A stretch of DNA of 64,000 bases from a virus. Below, piece after piece: positions 9,420 to 51,456 of the stretch. The notes beneath the pieces are model-generated. The model did no database searches. It saw nothing but the letters and a program-made list of their open reading frames with translations, and had not been told where the DNA came from. The position numbers and the translations under genes are program-made. The stretch covers positions 64,001 through 128,000 of IMG/VR virus record IMGVR_UViG_3300045996_000852. One strand, given 5' to 3'. How positions within the stretch are numbered: the first letter of the stretch is position 1; each line of letters begins with the position of its first letter.

Positions 9420-10538
9420 TTATTCAATTACATTTACTACTTCTCCAAACGGAGGATTAAATTCTCTCTTGCCATATGTAGCCCAAAGTACAGGATAATC
9501 TGGAATTTCAGGGAATGAATTACACTCACCATCAGTAAAATAAACTACTGCTTTTGGTTTAAGATCATGTGCATCAATCCACTCAAATCCCGGTTTGAAA
9601 TCTGTTCCACCACCACCAGAAGGATGTAAATCTACTGGTCCATCAGGTTCGACATATTCATGTGATTGTACCTTAGCATCTACATAAACTACAGTAAACC
9701 CTTTACCGAAAGTATTTACTACTTCCTGCATTTCTCCACCAAACTTATTTAACAGTACTTGATTAATACTCATTGATGTATCAACAATCATTATAATATC
9801 ACCTACTGTTTCATTATATAAAGACGGTAAGAAAAATCCAGTATGTATATACCTCATATTAGGTCTCCTGAATGAATAGTCATCCCTTACTGCTTCAGAA
9901 AGGAATCTTGCCAATACTTCCTTCCAGTCTACTTGGGGTTTTAGAGCTTCATCAATGTGTCTAGCTAAGAATCCGGGTAATCTACCTTGCTTCTTTGCAT
10001 TGTTTATAGCCTGACTAACCATTTCCCTAACTTCCTGTTCTTCTTTTTCCCTTTCAGCTTCACCCTTGTTATCAGATGGGTCTATTCCTCCACATCCACC
10101 CGGGTCACTATCTGCATCAGGGTCATCATCTTCAGGTTCATCAGGTAATTCATTGTAGATTTCTTCTGCTGGTTTATCCCGGAATCTGTCATCTAGCAGG
10201 ACATCTTTTGGTAATTTCAAACCACATTCAATGATTATAGGATTTATAGCATAATCTGCTGCCTTATTCCATTTTCTGTGATTTCTCAAACCTTGTCTAG
10301 TATGGTGAAGATTCGTAATGTGCAGAACTTCATGAGCTAATACCCCGGATAATTCATCCAAAGGAGTTTTCTCTACGAAGTCTGGATTATACTTTATGTT
10401 CTTCCCATTAGTGGACATTGTTTTTGTTTTACCAGAAGTATCCTCTACATAATCCAATCCCATAGCTACGGAAGCAAAGAAAGGCTCACTAAGAATCATT
10501 AATGTCTTAGCTTTGCTGAATTTCTCTTCTACTTTCAT
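9420..10538 (-). CDS. VWA-like metallopeptidase (DUF2201 type)
   Basis: A 372-residue protein with two parts. The N-terminal part carries a zinc peptidase motif, A-H69-E70-V-L-H73 with a further T-N-L-H-H. The C-terminal part is a von Willebrand A domain with the MIDAS residues D-T-S-M-S and later G-G-G-T-D-F and Y-F-T-D-G-E. Between them is an acidic linker (E-D-D-D-P-D-A-D-S-D-P). Proteins with this layout usually partner a MoxR-type AAA+ ATPase, found here at 11179-12210. The pair likely remodels or cuts a metal-bound or protein substrate; the target in a phage is unknown. Confidence 0.85.
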   Translation of the reverse strand: MKVEEKFSKAKTLMILSEPFFASVAMGLDYVEDTSGKTKTMSTNGKNIKYNPDFVEKTPLDELSGVLAHEVLHITNLHHTRQGLRNHRKWNKAADYAINPIIIECGLKLPKDVLLDDRFRDKPAEEIYNELPDEPEDDDPDADSDPGGCGGIDPSDNKGEAEREKEEQEVREMVSQAINNAKKQGRLPGFLARHIDEALKPQVDWKEVLARFLSEAVRDDYSFRRPNMRYIHTGFFLPSLYNETVGDIIMIVDTSMSINQVLLNKFGGEMQEVVNTFGKGFTVVYVDAKVQSHEYVEPDGPVDLHPSGGGGTDFKPGFEWIDAHDLKPKAVVYFTDGECNSFPEIPDYPVLWATYGKREFNPPFGEVVNVIE

Positions 10539-10884
10539 TATTGATAATATTTATGTAGTTACAGGTTACTTTCCAAACTTCGTAACAATTGAATGTTGCT
10601 AAAGCTGTTCTCATATCATCCCTTCCACTTACGAAAGGATTTACTTCTTCGTAGGCTTTATGAGCAGCTTCCATTAGCCAATCAAATGAATCATGGAACT
10701 TTAACATTTCAATGGTTATTGCATCACCTAGTCTTATAGCTAATCTGTCTCTCCTATATCTTTTAGCAACCTCACCATACCAAGCCCAAGTTTCACTCTT
10801 CTGAACTACCCAAGCAATTCTTACTTCACCTCCGAGAAATTCAGCAATTAACTTATTTCCCTGTATTATCTCTTCCTTTGTCAT
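10507..10884 (-). CDS. small phage protein, unknown
   Basis: A 125-residue product starting M-T-K-E-E-I-I-Q-G-N-K-L-I-A-E-F-L-G-G, an opening I recognise from many small phage proteins of unknown function. It contains S-F-D-W-L-M-E-A-A-H-K-A. It overlaps the VWA metallopeptidase gene by 32 nt and lies between that gene and the MoxR ATPase, so it may belong to the same module. Confidence 0.6.
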   Translation of the reverse strand: MTKEEIIQGNKLIAEFLGGEVRIAWVVQKSETWAWYGEVAKRYRRDRLAIRLGDAITIEMLKFHDSFDWLMEAAHKAYEEVNPFVSGRDDMRTALATFNCYEVWKVTCNYINIINNESRREIQQS

Positions 10885-11182
10885 CTTTTTGTTCTTTAGG
10901 TAATCTTAATGGAAGAACTCCTTTCTTTGTTCCACTGAAGTTCTTCTTTATCTTTTCTGTGATAGGCTCTGAACTGGTAAGCTGATAATATATCAACCTG
11001 TCCTTTCCTATAATGGTCAATTTCATTCTTCCGTCAGCTAAAATATCTTCTGAGAATACAACCGAATGTTCATCCCCATTAAATACTTTATCCACGGAAT
11101 CATATGCTTCCTGATAGGATTTCAGGTCCACTTCATCTTCAACTTCTTTTCCAGATAGCCTGTGTTTCCTATTGTATATCAT
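10853..11182 (-). CDS. small protein, unknown
   Basis: A 109-residue product with a beta-rich middle (S-V-V-F-S-E-D, M-K-L-T-I-I-G-K-D-R-L-I-Y-Y-Q-L) and a basic, disordered-looking tail (K-E-Q-K-D-D-K-G-R-D-N-T-G-K). It overlaps the MoxR stop by ATGA and the next gene by 32 nt. Function unknown. Confidence 0.55.
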   Translation of the reverse strand: MIYNRKHRLSGKEVEDEVDLKSYQEAYDSVDKVFNGDEHSVVFSEDILADGRMKLTIIGKDRLIYYQLTSSEPITEKIKKNFSGTKKGVLPLRLPKEQKDDKGRDNTGK

Positions 11183-12210
11183 ATGTTTAGGAGTTCTTGA
11201 TGTTTAACTGACCAATTTATAAAGCCTTTTGTGTTACAAACCTCTGGTTTTCTGACACTTATGTCTTTTACACAAGCTACAGAGAACTCAGGTTTCAGTC
11301 TATCCAGATAAGTTATGATATTATCTACATTTACCTCACTTGCTCTATTCGCCAATCCAGCACAGATAGCATAGGTCTGACCCCCACTTCCGTTACCTGT
11401 TGGAACCTTAGCACCTGTAGGATTGAGAATAATCTCATCCAAGGTTGGTAAATCTCTCATTAACTTAAGGAAAGCTGTATATTCAGCAGCAAAAGCCTCA
11501 CCTGCTATCCCCTTAAATGCTTCATGCTCAAAGCCTTGTGGTAATCCAGCGTTTTGAACTTTACCTACCGAACTTATAGTTCTTGGTGATGCAGTATTTA
11601 TTATATCCTTTGTAGGTACAGAATTCTCCAACATACTTGGTTTGAACCTTATAAAGGATATTAGCTCCAATGGCATATTTCCATCATTTAAAGCCCATTT
11701 AACCCAATCATTACTATCTATGTCAAATTCTATGATACCTCCGGTAAAACGGCTTTTTACAGGCTCTAACATCCCCGTAACAGCAGCTTTGTCCTCTTTC
11801 CGGTTGGTAGCTGCCACAATACTTACATTATCTGAGATTTTATGACCATTTATCTCCCTAGCCAGCAATATCTGCATAATAGCAGCTTGTACAGATGCAG
11901 GAGCTTGTCCCAAATCATCAATAAACCATGTTATAGGTTCTGTAGCTTCCAATAATTGCCTTAAATCACTAAAAGGTAAAAACTCTGCTTTCGGAGTTGA
12001 ACCATTCTTCGGAGTAAATGCAAAAGGTAATCCTTTGAAGTCTGTAGGGTCTGATACTACCGGATGACTAAGGATAACTTTCCTTCCAGCCCCCTTGCTT
12101 GCGGAAATAAGTACATCTGTTTTACCTACCCCGGGTTTACCCTTTACCAGCAAATTAAAGTTGTTCTCAATACAGAACTTAGCATACTCTTTTAATTGTG
12201 TTGCTTTCAT
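11179..12210 (-). CDS. MoxR-type AAA+ ATPase
   Basis: The product has 343 residues from the start M-K-A-T-Q-L-K. Earlier in-frame ATGs are rejected because they would read through the rIIA terminator. Walker A is G-K-P-G-V-G-K-T (24-31) and Walker B is W-F-I-D-D-L (95-100). They are followed by A-A-T-N-R-K (sensor 1 region) and the arginine-containing P-V-K-S-R-F. MoxR ATPases act as chaperones that insert cofactors or drive remodelling together with VWA proteins. The VWA metallopeptidase is two genes downstream. Confidence 0.85.
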   Translation of the reverse strand: MKATQLKEYAKFCIENNFNLLVKGKPGVGKTDVLISASKGAGRKVILSHPVVSDPTDFKGLPFAFTPKNGSTPKAEFLPFSDLRQLLEATEPITWFIDDLGQAPASVQAAIMQILLAREINGHKISDNVSIVAATNRKEDKAAVTGMLEPVKSRFTGGIIEFDIDSNDWVKWALNDGNMPLELISFIRFKPSMLENSVPTKDIINTASPRTISSVGKVQNAGLPQGFEHEAFKGIAGEAFAAEYTAFLKLMRDLPTLDEIILNPTGAKVPTGNGSGGQTYAICAGLANRASEVNVDNIITYLDRLKPEFSVACVKDISVRKPEVCNTKGFINWSVKHQELLNI

Positions 12211-12221
12211 CGTTTTTAAAT

Positions 12222-12248
12222 TAAAAAGGGAGTCCGAAGACTCCCCTT
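12222..12248 (-). terminator. intrinsic terminator after the rIIA-like gene
   Basis: A perfect 7-bp stem GGGAGTC/GACTCCC with a TTCG loop is followed by TTTTT on the minus strand. It sits right after the rIIA stop and 12 nt before the MoxR start, and it decides that start. Confidence 0.9.
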
Positions 12249-12253
12249 TGTGA

Positions 12254-15253
12254 TTAATACTCTTTATGCCATTCGAGACTTTCTTCAACAGAAGGTAATT
12301 CAGTATCACCATTTGATAACACTGGTTCACCTACATCATCGGGATTAGACTCTATTTCTACCTTATCTTCCCCTGTATTAGGGTCTTCCATGTTATTAAT
12401 AGGAACACTTACCTCAGAAGAATCATTATCTCCTGATGGTTCCTGAATTTCTTCAACTTCAGGTGTTTCTTCAATCTCAACATGAACCATTTGTTCTTCT
12501 TCATTAGACATGGTTGTTTCTTGGTTATCTTCCTCATCATCATCCTGTGTTTCGTTTTCATCGAAGTCATCCTCATCTACTTCCCCTGATTCATCAAATT
12601 CTTCATCATCATCATCGTCTGAATCATCATCTTCATCAGATTCTTCCTCATCTAATTCTAATTCTTCCTCTTCCTCTTCCTCTTCCTCTTCTTCAGGGTC
12701 AGGTAATGGGTCTTGAACATCTGGTTCTTTAATATCATCCTGCCTTAATGCTACAGGAATACAATTAGGATATTCTTCCAGAAGTTTCTCTTTGGATAAC
12801 CATACATATTCTTCATCAAGAGAATGGTCTTCATGACCAATCATTTGACCAAGGAAATCATGCTTAGGCTTCCAATAAGCTATTTCTTCTTCAGGAACCA
12901 CATCTTCTATTACAGGAACAAGACGATAATTCTGAGTAATAGTACAATCTACATTCTTAGCTTTAAGAATTGTGTAGATTAGATTCCTTACAGCTTTCTT
13001 TTGTGCTGCATTAGCATGTCTAGGAGCTTCTAAGAATTTCAGGAAGTTGAAATCTTCCATTATTTTCTTAAATGTTTCTAATGTAGGATAAATCTCAGGG
13101 TCAACTTGATTGTTTTGAAGAGCAAGTTGTTTCAACTCCTGATATAATTCATCACTACCATTCTGCTTGTTGGCACTTTTGTATCTACGTAAAGAATCTC
13201 TCATTTCCTTATACTTAGGAAATGCATCAGCTATCATGTCTTCGTGACCAGCAGGAATCATATCCAGATAATCACTAATTAAATTTGCAGTAACGTATCT
13301 TTGAAGAGGTTTTGTAAACATAACTTTAACGGTTTCATTTAGTTCATTAAATACTTTCTTTCCTTTAAGGAATTCTTCTTTGGTTTTCCAATTTTTCAGA
13401 TGTTTAACGTGTTTGACTTCACGATCATTAAGCCATACAATATCAATATCCTGACTTATAACATTACCTTTACTGTCTTTCTTTGAGAAAGCCATCAAAG
13501 TATTATAAATAAAATCAGGTCCATCTTCCCTTGTGTCATTGTAAGCCTCATCTTTTGTAAAGTAAATAGTCAAACGATTCTTTTGGGAAAGTTCTTGAAT
13601 TTTCATCTTTCCTTTATCGAAGACTACTTTACCACCAAATTTATATTCCCTAGCATTATTGATTGTAATTTCACCTTTCTCTTTGTTAAGAGCTTTGTAA
13701 TTAGAACTATAAGAACCAGTACTTCTATTGGCTTTCATCTCTTCTTTCTTCATCTCAATCCATTCTGTGAATTCTTCCGAGCCTTCCAGTTCCTTACCAT
13801 CTTCAAATTTACTAAATACAGTTTCCTGTACATGCTGCCACTCTTTAATGTGCTCTCTCCAAGACTCCCTTGGGACATCACCTAATAATAGGATGTTGTA
13901 ATAAGAATTTTCTTTATATTTACCATAAGCTCCCAAAGTTCTTTTATTCCTTCTTACTACAAACAAAGTATCATCATTATACTTTTCCCTTAAGAAACTT
14001 TTAAACCTACCAGTTGGTGTTGATTTAAGTTCTACAATAGTAGTTCTCTTATCATCTGTTAAGATTTTTGACATTTCAGGCATGTATTTTTTAGCCCATG
14101 CTCCATTCTTACCAAGATATGAAACTTTATCATATTCAAAGAACATCTTGTCGAACTTCTCTTTGTACCAACTTGGCTTCCTGTACTTTACACCATCTAA
14201 TTCTACTTCTCTTACAGTAAGTTTGGCAAATTTGAGTAAATCGTTAATCTTTATCTGAGTCTCCTCAATCTTAACGTATTTATTCTTTCCACCAATAGCC
14301 TCCCATGCATCTACCAAGTTAGGGAATGCTTCTACTGTATTATCATATTTCTCTTTAAACCAATGAGCAACCTTTGTGATTTTATCCTTGAACAATTTAA
14401 TTGTTTCATCGGTATACATAATTGCTTCTCTGGAAGGTGTAGGCATGATACCATCTTGTAATCCAAATCTTAAACATATAGGTGAGAATATTTCATCAAT
14501 TCCCAAATGTTCAAAGTTAATTGCATAGTATACATCCTTGAGAGAAAAGTGTAGACTGTTATTGTGGTTAAGAGTAGACCACTGGAAGTCTTCAGCACGA
14601 TAGATTGTGTTATCTACAACATCACCATCAATTGACAGTATAACATTATCATAATAGCACAACTTCTGCCTAGCTTTCTTAACAAACTTATCTTTATCCC
14701 AATAGTCCTTAATTGGGACAATTACTGTTACACCATTACCTTCTTTTGTTTCTACTTCAGTCAGCTTATCATACTCAAGGAACACTGGTCCTTTGTAGCA
14801 AAGAAAAGTTCTTTGAACTCCATCTTTTGTACAGATGAATGTAGCATTTCTACTTACTGAGCACCAAGACTTAGCTCCAATTCCAAATGCACCAATTACA
14901 TCATCACTATCCTCTTTTGTTGAGGTAAGATAGTTCATTACTACATTCTCGAATTCAGATTCATCAAGTCCTAGTCCATTATCAACTATTCTTAGTTGAT
15001 ACTTTCCTCTTCCGTCTGCCTCAATATACACATAAACTGGATTCTGCATTGGGTCTTTACCAGCTTGAATAATTGAGTCTAAGGCATTATTGGTAAGTTC
15101 TACAATTGTACTACCTACACCATCTGAATAGAGACCATTGGTGAGCAAGTATTGTAGTTTAGCCAGCTTTGCCTGATTAATCTTTGCTGTCTTAGGTGCT
15201 GAGTCACCAACAACAATGACGTTTTCGTTTGCATTTTTGTTTTCTAATTTCAT
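12254..15253 (-). CDS. rIIA-like: rIIA-like GHKL ATPase with acidic tail
   Basis: The protein has 999 residues, longer than T4 rIIA. The N-terminus is a GHKL ATPase: V-E-L-T-N55-N-A-L-D-S (N box), I-V-D91-N-G-L-G-L (G1 box), and G-A-F-G-I-G-A-K-S (121-129, G2 box). This matches the rIIA branch of the Hsp90/MutL superfamily. From about residue 840 to the end the protein is extremely acidic, with long Glu and Asp runs, and probably disordered. In T4, rIIA with rIIB counters RexAB and affects the host membrane. The ATPase call is firm; the acidic tail is unusual and may bind cations or basic proteins. Confidence 0.85.
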   Translation of the reverse strand: MKLENKNANENVIVVGDSAPKTAKINQAKLAKLQYLLTNGLYSDGVGSTIVELTNNALDSIIQAGKDPMQNPVYVYIEADGRGKYQLRIVDNGLGLDESEFENVVMNYLTSTKEDSDDVIGAFGIGAKSWCSVSRNATFICTKDGVQRTFLCYKGPVFLEYDKLTEVETKEGNGVTVIVPIKDYWDKDKFVKKARQKLCYYDNVILSIDGDVVDNTIYRAEDFQWSTLNHNNSLHFSLKDVYYAINFEHLGIDEIFSPICLRFGLQDGIMPTPSREAIMYTDETIKLFKDKITKVAHWFKEKYDNTVEAFPNLVDAWEAIGGKNKYVKIEETQIKINDLLKFAKLTVREVELDGVKYRKPSWYKEKFDKMFFEYDKVSYLGKNGAWAKKYMPEMSKILTDDKRTTIVELKSTPTGRFKSFLREKYNDDTLFVVRRNKRTLGAYGKYKENSYYNILLLGDVPRESWREHIKEWQHVQETVFSKFEDGKELEGSEEFTEWIEMKKEEMKANRSTGSYSSNYKALNKEKGEITINNAREYKFGGKVVFDKGKMKIQELSQKNRLTIYFTKDEAYNDTREDGPDFIYNTLMAFSKKDSKGNVISQDIDIVWLNDREVKHVKHLKNWKTKEEFLKGKKVFNELNETVKVMFTKPLQRYVTANLISDYLDMIPAGHEDMIADAFPKYKEMRDSLRRYKSANKQNGSDELYQELKQLALQNNQVDPEIYPTLETFKKIMEDFNFLKFLEAPRHANAAQKKAVRNLIYTILKAKNVDCTITQNYRLVPVIEDVVPEEEIAYWKPKHDFLGQMIGHEDHSLDEEYVWLSKEKLLEEYPNCIPVALRQDDIKEPDVQDPLPDPEEEEEEEEEEELELDEEESDEDDDSDDDDDEEFDESGEVDEDDFDENETQDDDEEDNQETTMSNEEEQMVHVEIEETPEVEEIQEPSGDNDSSEVSVPINNMEDPNTGEDKVEIESNPDDVGEPVLSNGDTELPSVEESLEWHKEY

Positions 15254-15255
15254 AC

Positions 15256-15501
15256 TTATAAGTATTTTTGTAAAGCCTTAATAAATTCGGGTAAATGTTC
15301 TGTAGGTATCTCAATCCTACATCTTCCAGCTAATTTCCTACTGGTTAATGGTTCGATTTCAATATAAGGATTTCCTGTACTAACGTGGTTATTCCAATTA
15401 TTAATTTGAACACCTGTAGATTGAAATGTTCCATTCCTTCCAAGGAATTCTACAGTATCCTTAAAATCAATATTTTGTGTATGTCTTTCTTTGTAATTCA
15501 T
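15256..15501 (-). CDS. small protein, unknown
   Basis: An 81-residue product (N-terminus MNYKERHTQNIDF) with a beta-rich centre and a C-terminal helix (H-L-P-E-F-I-K-A-L-Q-K-Y-L). It lies two bases upstream of rIIA and overlaps the Rieske-like gene by ATGA. No family is recognised. Confidence 0.6.
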   Translation of the reverse strand: MNYKERHTQNIDFKDTVEFLGRNGTFQSTGVQINNWNNHVSTGNPYIEIEPLTSRKLAGRCRIEIPTEHLPEFIKALQKYL

Positions 15502-16058
15502 ATAACTAATTTTCCTGTGTTAACGTTCCATTGTAAACCATGCATAGGACAAGTAACAATTCCATCAATCACCTGACAGCTTTTCATATCATAATTATGA
15601 TGAGGACATTTCATATTCTTCATTTGAACATCCTTCATAATATCTTTCAGAGTATTAAAACCTTGAGATTGAGGAAATTCTCTAAAATGTCTCTTATATA
15701 ATAATGGAATATACTCTTCTTTAACTACTTCAGTTTCCATAACAGGGGCAAAGTAATGTAAATTCTCAGCATCTTGGAATCTAGGATAAAGATGTTTGAA
15801 TGCTCTTTCCTGAGCTTCTATATGTTGCTCCAATACAAATCTCCAATCAACATGATAATGGGAATTGGGTTGACCATAGATACCATCTTTATGAGCTATA
15901 TCCAATACTGGAAACCAACAATCTTGTCTATCATATGTTTCTATAACATAATCTTCCCGGTTAGCTGGTCTTTCATTCCATCTTTTAGTAAGTACACATT
16001 TTACGAGATAGTGTTGTCCTATTTGAGGATTACAAACATCCTCAATTTTGTACATCAT
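15498..16058 (-). CDS. Rieske-type [2Fe-2S] protein
   Basis: A 186-residue protein whose C-terminus has both Rieske cluster motifs: C151-P-H153-H and C170-P-M-H173-G-L, 16 residues apart. They are followed by Q-W-N-V-N-T-G-K, the usual post-cluster strand with T-G. Such domains carry a [2Fe-2S] cluster and transfer electrons. Residues 1-140 have no recognised domain, but W-R-F-V-L-E-Q-H-I and Y-I-P-L-L-Y-K-R-H-F-R-E-F appear helical. No oxygenase catalytic domain is present, so the redox partner is unknown. The motif is clear; a phage role is inference. Confidence 0.75.
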   Translation of the reverse strand: MMYKIEDVCNPQIGQHYLVKCVLTKRWNERPANREDYVIETYDRQDCWFPVLDIAHKDGIYGQPNSHYHVDWRFVLEQHIEAQERAFKHLYPRFQDAENLHYFAPVMETEVVKEEYIPLLYKRHFREFPQSQGFNTLKDIMKDVQMKNMKCPHHNYDMKSCQVIDGIVTCPMHGLQWNVNTGKLVI

Positions 16059-16279
16059 ATTTCAAGTTTTCCTTGTATGAAACTATCTTGTTCAGATTCC
16101 AAATCCTTAAGTTCAGATTCATACATGGCTTTGAGCAATTTAATAACTTCATCGTTTGTACCTTTTCGAGCATTAAGTCTTGCATTCATAGCCTCATTCA
16201 GAACTTGAGAGCTACCTTCCATTTCTAGGACTTTCAGCTTATTCTTTACTCTTTTTATATTGTTGGTCAATTGGCTCAT
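16055..16279 (-). CDS. small coiled-coil protein, unknown
   Basis: A 74-residue, almost entirely helical product with heptads in N-N-I-K-R-V-K-N-K-L-K-V-L and Y-E-S-E-L-K-D-L-E-S-E. It overlaps the neighbours on both sides by ATGA. Function unknown. Confidence 0.6.
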   Translation of the reverse strand: MSQLTNNIKRVKNKLKVLEMEGSSQVLNEAMNARLNARKGTNDEVIKLLKAMYESELKDLESEQDSFIQGKLEI

Positions 16280-16575
16280 TTTGGAAAATGTGTTTTAAGT
16301 AATTCAAATCTTAGAGCAGTACTCATCTTCCAGTCATCTTTAGATAATGATTCTGCTTTCTGAATGAATTGTGTGAAAAAATCCTTATTCTTTTCAATAT
16401 ATTCACAATCAATAACAGTTTCAGAAGATAATATAGCTTCTACATCTTGAGAACTTAGAGTTTCCATGTTATCAAGAATGACTATATGAGCTTCGTTTAT
16501 CCTATCATTATTATAATGTGTAATATATTCTGTGAATTTATCCCATTCCATATCACTTAAAATGGTGCTCCCCAA
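16276..16575 (-). CDS. small acidic protein, unknown
   Basis: A 99-residue product, net acidic and mostly helical (W-D-K-F-T-E-Y-I-T, V-E-A-I-L-S-S-E-T-V). The first codons overlap the UDG-like gene by 19 nt. Function unknown. Confidence 0.55.
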   Translation of the reverse strand: MGSTILSDMEWDKFTEYITHYNNDRINEAHIVILDNMETLSSQDVEAILSSETVIDCEYIEKNKDFFTQFIQKAESLSKDDWKMSTALRFELLKTHFPK

Positions 16576-17303
16576 TCAGCAGAATCCCACTGAATTGCTG
16601 GATATATACCATTATTTTCGTTAAGAATTTTGTTTATCTTGGTAAATATACCATCTGAATTCCAATCCCTACGAGTGTGTTCAGCAGCAGCCGGATGTTC
16701 AATCTCAAAGACATAGTTACCAAGTTCATAAATGTACTTCCTCATTCTCTTTGATGATTTACCACACAATACATAAATTATTCCTGTGTAGTCACTCATT
16801 ATATGAGTAAGGAAGAATTTCTGAAATGGTTCCCAAAGCTTCTCATGACTAGCTGTTTTGTTCAACTTGCAAGTAAGGTCTGTATTAAGCATCATAACTC
16901 CTTGTTCCAGAAGATAATTCAAAGATGCTTCTTGATTTACCTGTTTACCAACTTCTTTTGAAATAGCTTCATAGAATTTGATTAATGAAGGTTGAAGCTT
17001 CTTATCCGGTGTGTTAGAACAATCCATAGCTATTCCTGTAGCTTGATAGCTCTTATTCCTGTATCTTCTTGGATAAGGGTCCATCAGGTAGAATATTACC
17101 TTCAAATCCTGAGGTCTGGTCTTCTGGAATACTTTAAATGTATCCTCTGGTTTAGGAACTATGATTTCTTTATTCACCCGGGAATCATGCTTTAATACCT
17201 GATAAATATCATAGAACTCTTTGCTTTCAATAAAGGGCTTGAATTTCTCAGCCCAATCACCGAATAAAGGAGCAAAATCCTCATAAATCATTCTATTTTC
17301 CAT
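16557..17303 (-). CDS. ung-like: uracil-DNA glycosylase family 1-like
   Basis: A 248-residue protein. Motif 1 reads L-M-D75-P-Y-P in place of the canonical GQDPYH, keeping the catalytic Asp. The next landmark is G-V-M-M-L-N140-T-D-L-T (canonical LLLNxxLT). The third is E-H203-P-A-A-A in place of HPSP, keeping the His. With these substitutions it is a divergent member and may have a changed base preference. UDGs excise uracil from DNA and are known in other Bacteroidota phages. A second UDG-like gene is at 51880-52308. Confidence 0.75.
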   Translation of the reverse strand: MENRMIYEDFAPLFGDWAEKFKPFIESKEFYDIYQVLKHDSRVNKEIIVPKPEDTFKVFQKTRPQDLKVIFYLMDPYPRRYRNKSYQATGIAMDCSNTPDKKLQPSLIKFYEAISKEVGKQVNQEASLNYLLEQGVMMLNTDLTCKLNKTASHEKLWEPFQKFFLTHIMSDYTGIIYVLCGKSSKRMRKYIYELGNYVFEIEHPAAAEHTRRDWNSDGIFTKINKILNENNGIYPAIQWDSADWGAPF

Positions 17304-50575: not shown

Positions 50576-50582
50576 CCGGGTG

Positions 50583-51039
50583 TGGAGGTGATCGGGGTCG
50601 AACCGATGTCCAAACATAATAATCAGTCGAGAGTTACGTGTGTGACTAGCTTTATCATCCCTGTCTTGGATTATCTCAGTTGTGAACTGGAAACTGTGCC
50701 TGTTTGCATAGTTATACTGTACACTCCACAGGCTGACTTCTAACAGTTACCTTTCTAAACCTCAGGTGGGTTCGGGAACTAGACTAATTCTAATTCTTCT
50801 TCTGCCACTACCTCAGCAGGGAACAGAGAAGTTAAGAAAGAATCAAGGTTTCCATCTTCTCCTACAGTCACGTTAGACTTAGCAGGAGAGTTTGCTTCAA
50901 CATTAACACTGTTAACATTAGAAGCGGCAACATTTGTGTTTGCGTTTATTTTTTGAATATTCAGATTATAGACCTAATTATCCAACGGTCTACACGCCCT
51001 CTTCCCATTACCCATGCTGTCAAAACCAAGTACACCCCC
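50583..51039 (-). ncRNA. ssrA: tmRNA with unusually long tag
   Basis: A complete tmRNA of 457 nt. The acceptor stem 5' GGGGGUG (51033-51039) pairs with 3' CACCUCC (50584-50590), with a G-U at pair 3 as in alanine tRNA. The T arm is AUCGG-UUCGACC-CCGAU. A 5' hairpin/pseudoknot PK1 pairs UAGACC with GGUCUA (50988-50993 with 50969-50974). CCA is not encoded: A73 is followed by CACCC. The tag frame resumes at GCA (50943) and runs 54 codons to UAG (50779-50781), starting A-N-T-N-V-A-A-S and ending A-E-E-E-L-E-L-V. Tags are usually 8-35 residues and end in LAA or similar. Confidence 0.9.
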
Positions 51040-51090: not shown

Positions 51091-51456
51091 TTACAAATTT
51101 GACCTATAACTGTCAGGATGGATAAAATCAATAATATCCTTGGCCTCTTTTAATCCCAAGCCTGTGATTTCCTTCATTACCTTTACTGCATTCAATTTAG
51201 AATTTCCTACCATATATTCTTTGATATGATTTATGTCCCATCTGCTAATCCTCTTAAAATCAACAGGTTGCATAATTCTTCTCAATTCTTGAGTAAATGG
51301 GTCGGAATAATCTACATCATGCTTTTTAACTTCAGTGGTATTAGCACCAAGCTCTTCCTTGAGAATCTTTATAAGTGCTGTATTGTGACCAATTTCTCTA
51401 TCAGTCTTTGGTTCTTCTATGAACATATTTAATATGCTCTTGACTTTCAATCTCAT
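51091..51456 (-). CDS. protein with bL12 C-terminal-like segment
   Basis: A 121-residue product. Residues 86-111 (S-K-L-N-A-V-K-V-M-K-E-I-T-G-L-G-L-K-E-A-K-D) match the ribosomal protein bL12 C-terminal domain at its most conserved stretch, the helix-turn-helix that contacts translation factors. The rest of that domain is missing. The N-terminal 80 residues have no match. Because the segment is the factor-binding part, the protein may touch EF-G, EF-Tu or the ribosome stalk. It sits between a structured RNA (51470-51642) and the tmRNA promoter. Confidence 0.65.
   Translation of the reverse strand: MRLKVKSILNMFIEEPKTDREIGHNTALIKILKEELGANTTEVKKHDVDYSDPFTQELRRIMQPVDFKRISRWDINHIKEYMVGNSKLNAVKVMKEITGLGLKEAKDIIDFIHPDSYRSNL

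Follow-up and report, generated by a model that had tools for sequence, protein, structure and literature searches.

What does a protein that ends in a Rieske cluster motif do in a phage, and is it the iron-sulfur electron carrier for which it was taken when the locus was first read? Rieske clusters are known to be inserted into a single type of base domain and are used in respiration, in oxygenases and in ferredoxins. The window in which the gene was noticed is a stretch of 64,000 nucleotides, covering positions 64001-128000 in a virus record of 165,392 bp (IMGVR_UViG_3300045996_000852). This record encodes crAss ring-2 and muzzle proteins, a terminase and a portal protein and shares homologues common to crAss-like phages, and can hence be assigned to a crAss-like phage, corroborating that the protein is phage-encoded.

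A Rieske-motif gene in a phage operon

The open reading frame (table) has an ATG start and a TGA stop and encodes a 186-aa protein in which the 13 residues after H173 form the C-terminal end. As originally predicted, a C-x-H-x16-C-x2-H motif closes the protein, and the Pfam Rieske profile (PF00355) is matched with 25.3 bits, above the curated cut-off of 20.3, over profile positions 39-75 of 88 only. With respect to membership in PF00355, the ligand pattern and a score above the cut-off are thus present, whereas a subdomain set in a Rieske base domain is not. The pattern C.H.{15,17}C..H is found a single time in the window versus 0.03 occurrences expected from composition-shuffled open reading frames, while for the stricter CPH..CPxHG form the expectation in the shuffled frames of the window is 0.00. 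From the overlaps with both neighbours, the gene can be deduced to belong to a translationally coupled operon. It had been placed right upstream of rIIA; an additional small gene intervenes, however, making the Rieske-motif gene the second one upstream of the RIIA homologue. RIIA is followed by equally oriented genes for a MoxR-like AAA ATPase and for a protein with VWA/metallopeptidase domain (window 9420-12330, minus strand), resembling a chelatase-type pair.

Table. Features of the Rieske-motif locus, with positions given in the window.
Feature	Position	Strand	Basis
Gene for the 186-aa Rieske-motif protein (phrog_10072 family)	15498..16058	-	Open reading frame; Pfam Rieske 1.4e-5; phrog_10072 7.3e-8
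Rieske cluster-binding motif C151-P-H153-x16-C170-P-M-H173, residues 151-173	15540..15608	-	Invariant ligands and superposition on Rieske structures
Second invariant motif H56-x-D58 ... H67-x-H69-x-D71-x-R73-F74, residues 56-74	15837..15893	-	Conservation; candidate second metal or active site (putative)
74-aa gene upstream of the Rieske-motif gene	16055..16279	-	4-bp ATGA overlap; no named family
81-aa gene downstream, between the Rieske-motif gene and RIIA	15256..15501	-	4-bp ATGA overlap; no named family
RIIA homologue, 999 aa, next in the operon	12254..15253	-	phrog_612 RIIA 4.1e-41; HATPase_c_3 1.6e-8
Gene farther upstream in the same operon	16557..17303	-	phrog_12143 1.8e-32; crAss-like homologues annotated as uracil-DNA glycosylase (tblastn in phages)

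A search for redox partner genes in the rest of the genome had been proposed. Among 59 open reading frames of the window and 73 others, together most of those in the 165-kb record, scanned with Pfam at the thresholds used and leaving out the frames of 3,958 and 1,677 aa (L056:17-16983) as well as small ones, no ferredoxin reductase, plant-type ferredoxin, thioredoxin-family protein or oxygenase was found. Partners might still be supplied by the host. The assignment as electron carrier is thus unproven, and the additional invariant His/Asp motif points to a role beyond the mere transport of electrons.

Invariant ligands and inseparable halves in the phrog_10072 family

Residues 46-184 of the window protein align with profile positions 23-165 of 178 of phrog_10072 (PHROGs v4, function unknown). 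This cluster already existed, with name and function absent and neither motif noted in the entry as shown. The original prediction of a novel N-terminus is therefore only partly borne out, as this half is unnamed and has no counterpart in PDB or BFVD but is conserved and common to an existing unannotated phage family. All 22 members scanned match both phrog_10072 and Pfam Rieske (E<0.1). In total, 48 relatives were gathered, of which 46 are distinct, from lytic crAss-like, Mu-like and rhizobial temperate phages, phage-plasmids and a few other replicons, with GC contents across the loci ranging from 33 to 74%. By tblastn against plasmid records, members were found on a 41-kb phage-plasmid of Rhizobium rhizoryzae, here annotated as 'Rieske 2Fe-2S domain-containing protein', on the Methylorubrum AM1 megaplasmid, on Leptospira pLiSL34 and on Oscillatoria pOSC7112.01. 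When four members of the family served as tblastn queries on 50,697 phage records, no isolate phage was matched, and a locus search with poorly conserved peptides yielded no relatives. In the open-access literature, no report on phage Rieske proteins was found.

Scanning IMG/VR for CPxHG-[hydrophobic]-x-WN from the Rieske half retrieved relatives that share the N-terminal half. When employing the N-terminal motif HYHxDWRF alone on 2.9 million viral contigs, all 12 stretches obtained encode the two-part protein with the Rieske motif. The same number of contigs scanned with WP..GPxHxD alone gave 29 stretches, comprising 3 known and 22 new members plus 4 spurious short frames, and each of the 22 new members carries the Rieske motif. 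With HFHxDWRF, 3 true members and 5 stretches with short spurious frames only were found. Spurious short frames aside, the N-terminal half was not found separated from the Rieske half by these N-terminal motif scans; the two halves are inseparable.

For analyzing conservation, 49 sequences were aligned, forming 47 clusters at 70% and 27 at 50% identity. All four Rieske ligands are invariant (49/49), and ligand loss in relatives, which had been named as an observation that would speak against the Rieske assignment, is not seen in any of them. The prolines of both Rieske loops are conserved in 48-49 of the 49 sequences, the ligand pairs are spaced by x16-17 in 46/49 (x16 in the window protein), and 10-43 residues (median 20) follow the last ligand. 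In the N-terminal half, P50, H56 and D58 are equally invariant (49/49), and H67, H69, D71, R73 and F74 are found in all 48 sequences retaining this segment; His and Asp residues may also be conserved for structural reasons. At position C121, 42 of the 49 sequences have Cys, with Tyr in the window protein. One member (L086:286-762), flanked on one side by a methyltransferase-like gene and on the other by a truncated gene for a helicase-methyltransferase, shows in-frame loss of the HxHxDxRF segment and is possibly a decaying copy.

Predicted structure and relation to known Rieske proteins

Two AF2 models obtained with different query sequences and containing no metals show mean pLDDT values of 86.9 and 89.3 and pTM values of 0.81 and 0.84. 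When the models were compared with PDB structures by Foldseek, Rieske ferredoxins and oxygenases could be superposed at 1.2-1.7 Å over 29-37 residues. The E-values of these matches are close to 1, and the superposition is a local one; neither search of the predicted models gave a PDB or BFVD match reaching E 0.001. As only the cluster-binding subdomain superposes, this part can be regarded as Rieske-like and the scaffold as unrecognised. Hence, the classification as Rieske-type is valid for the cluster-binding subdomain in the models but not for a full Rieske fold, the base domain being replaced by an unmatched scaffold. By this scaffold and the second motif, the family departs from known proteins of the Rieske kind. 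According to the DSSP strings, H56-D58 and H67-H69 are located on two adjacent strands (48-58/63-70 and 25-38/44-51 in the two models, respectively), and if the strand ends pair, H56, D58, H67 and H69 would face one side of a hairpin in both models. For the N-terminus, Foldseek gave weak matches to ribosomal chains (prob ≤0.1), which were ignored. Residues 73-167 also matched beta subunits of ring-hydroxylating dioxygenases weakly in phmmer (E 0.07-1), but this match was discarded, as it was not recovered with the family profile.

With Rieske-type ferredoxins (T4moC of toluene 4-monooxygenase, 1vm9; toluene dioxygenase ferredoxin, 3dqy; CarAc), the family shares the pattern C-x-H-x16-17-C-x2-H and the CPxHG..W/F..TG loops, superposing at 1.2-1.4 Å over 36-37 residues. 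In contrast to these ferredoxins, a recognisable base domain as well as an adjacent oxygenase or reductase are lacking, and an extra scaffold of ~130-150 residues with an invariant H/D motif is present.

In Rieske oxygenases, a reductase supplies electrons that reach a mononuclear iron by way of the Rieske cluster, and the Rieske non-heme iron oxygenases form a C3-symmetric oligomer (PMC12445004). Like the latter enzymes (SxtT/GxtA, 6wn3/6wnc; dicamba monooxygenase, 3gb4), the family combines a Rieske site with a second His/Asp set, and the best PDB match of the family profile is the Rieske domain of SxtT (5.4e-6). However, the median length of 188 aa is about half of that of the oxygenases (>300), and the His/Asp set precedes the Rieske motif in the family, whereas it follows in the oxygenases. 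Moreover, the catalytic domain of Rieske oxygenases, which holds the mononuclear iron (2-His-1-carboxylate), is absent by Pfam in the window protein and 22 members and by Foldseek in both models, in line with the earlier observation that an oxygenase domain is missing. Membership in the Rieske non-heme iron oxygenases fails for this reason.

Genomic neighbours and possible role

In a survey based on Pfam and clustering, a DNA methyltransferase gene was found nearby at 17 of the 48 loci, 16 of them independent (L061 and L087 are the same element). Among these neighbours are a helicase-N4/N6 methyltransferase fusion (7 loci), a methyltransferase-like protein with NPPY motif identified by sequence reading (7 loci), MT-A70 with ParB-like proteins, assigned by inference (4 loci), and also C5 methyltransferases, and an annotated cytosine methyltransferase is encoded directly upstream of the Leptospira member. 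Among the families listed, at least 11 methyltransferase family matches, where one protein could match two families, fall to 52 near proteins compared to 1 in 85 far proteins from a control covering the first 25 of 41 families (Fisher 1e-4; 0.004 if three more are placed in the far set). This control is imperfect, as far genes are mostly structural or involved in integration and the loci are related. Methyltransferases are common in early regions of phages, and in the window phage itself none adjoins the Rieske-motif gene. Other early DNA neighbours in the family are Mor, primase, sliding clamp and DnaA-like genes as well as GemA, which is found within one or two genes of the member in three Mu-like phages and adjoins a member on a Burkholderiales MAG contig. 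On the cyanobacterial Oscillatoria plasmid (L064, 5857-12396), the family member is located ~3.5 kb from DISARM drmD.

The best explanation, which may well be correct but could just as well turn out wrong, is a compact two-site redox protein, probably binding a [2Fe-2S] cluster, that belongs to an early programme of DNA or nucleotide metabolism. In such a protein, a Rieske-type cluster-binding subdomain, probably with [2Fe-2S], would have been grafted onto a new scaffold of ~130-150 residues, whose invariant HxD...HxHxDxRF motif most likely forms a second metal or active site. Host reductants might load the cluster, electrons would then pass from the cluster to the N-terminal site, and this site might act on an early DNA or nucleotide substrate in the course of modification, protection or replication, the nucleic-acid substrate being suggested by the genomic setting. 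Cluster-binding loops alone on an unrelated scaffold, combined with a strictly conserved His/Asp set, would represent a new cofactor architecture.

By analogy with the oxygenases, a more specific version of this two-site protein can be envisaged, albeit as a rather improbable one. Here, the N-terminal HxD...HxHxD motif would bind a mononuclear iron that receives its electrons from the C-terminal Rieske cluster, either within one subunit or from a neighbouring one, and the enzyme would oxidise bases or methyl groups of phage nucleic acids, with DNA methyltransferase genes lying nearby in several phages. If true, this would open a route to DNA hypermodification or anti-restriction that is driven by a Rieske cluster. 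Should the second site be catalytic, the protein would be the smallest Rieske enzyme known to us, and its position among methyltransferase and replication genes would then lead to the specific hypothesis that phage DNA is modified oxidatively, one accessible in rhizobial temperate phages kept in culture.

Alternatively, the protein might be a plain Rieske-type ferredoxin shuttling electrons between host or phage enzymes, with the N-terminal domain serving as docking module. T4moC, CarAc and the ferredoxin subunit of methanesulfonate monooxygenase are indeed among the best PDB profile matches, NCBIfam models of ferredoxin subunits match weakly, the protein is small, and the lack of the bc1-type conserved disulfide pair fits the low-potential class. 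Nevertheless, we consider this unlikely, as a docking module leaves seven invariant His/Asp/Arg/Phe positions at 22-48% identity unexplained, the ferredoxin base domain is missing, with 29-37 residues aligning only, and a reductase or oxygenase partner is not encoded among the phage frames scanned with Pfam.

Similarly doubtful is a merely structural Cys2His2 site, binding zinc or a non-redox cluster, in a family of DNA- or protein-binding regulators or anti-restriction proteins. The CxH/CxxH pairs could bind zinc, redox partners were not found in the Pfam scan of the phage frames, and methyltransferases, GemA/Mor and replication genes adjoin family members. On the other hand, the loops are Rieske-like in sequence (CPHRG..CPxHGLxWN..TG) and in their superposition on Rieske sites (1.2-1.7 Å), both carry the conserved proline, and Pfam Rieske is matched above threshold by the window protein and recovered in every member scanned.

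Although Rieske ferredoxins are common in bacteria, capture of a host Rieske ferredoxin gene by phages as auxiliary metabolic gene is largely refuted and most improbable because cellular relatives are lacking, a single scan with a conserved C-terminal peptide across 84,980 species genomes revealing only 2 full-length relatives (on Spirosoma and Burkholderiales MAG contigs) and a profile search of 399 genomes from the order of the Burkholderiales MAG one further match, a 44-residue partial, and because the family possesses a conserved N-terminal half of its own and occurs in phages that are not related to each other.

Apart from the Rieske-motif locus, the crAss-like genome harbours the 3,958-aa frame at L056:17-11890 and, in the window, a tmRNA gene at 50580-51039 (minus strand), detected both by ARAGORN, which gives the tag AEEELELV, and by Rfam (RF00023, 82.9 bits, E 1.2e-30). 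Directly upstream of this tmRNA gene lies an ORF whose product contains the C-terminal domain of ribosomal bL12 (51091-51456, minus strand; PF00542 at 1.2e-8 in one window ORF; sequence LNAVKVMKEITGLGLKEAKDIIDF), the two possibly constituting a translation-targeting pair.
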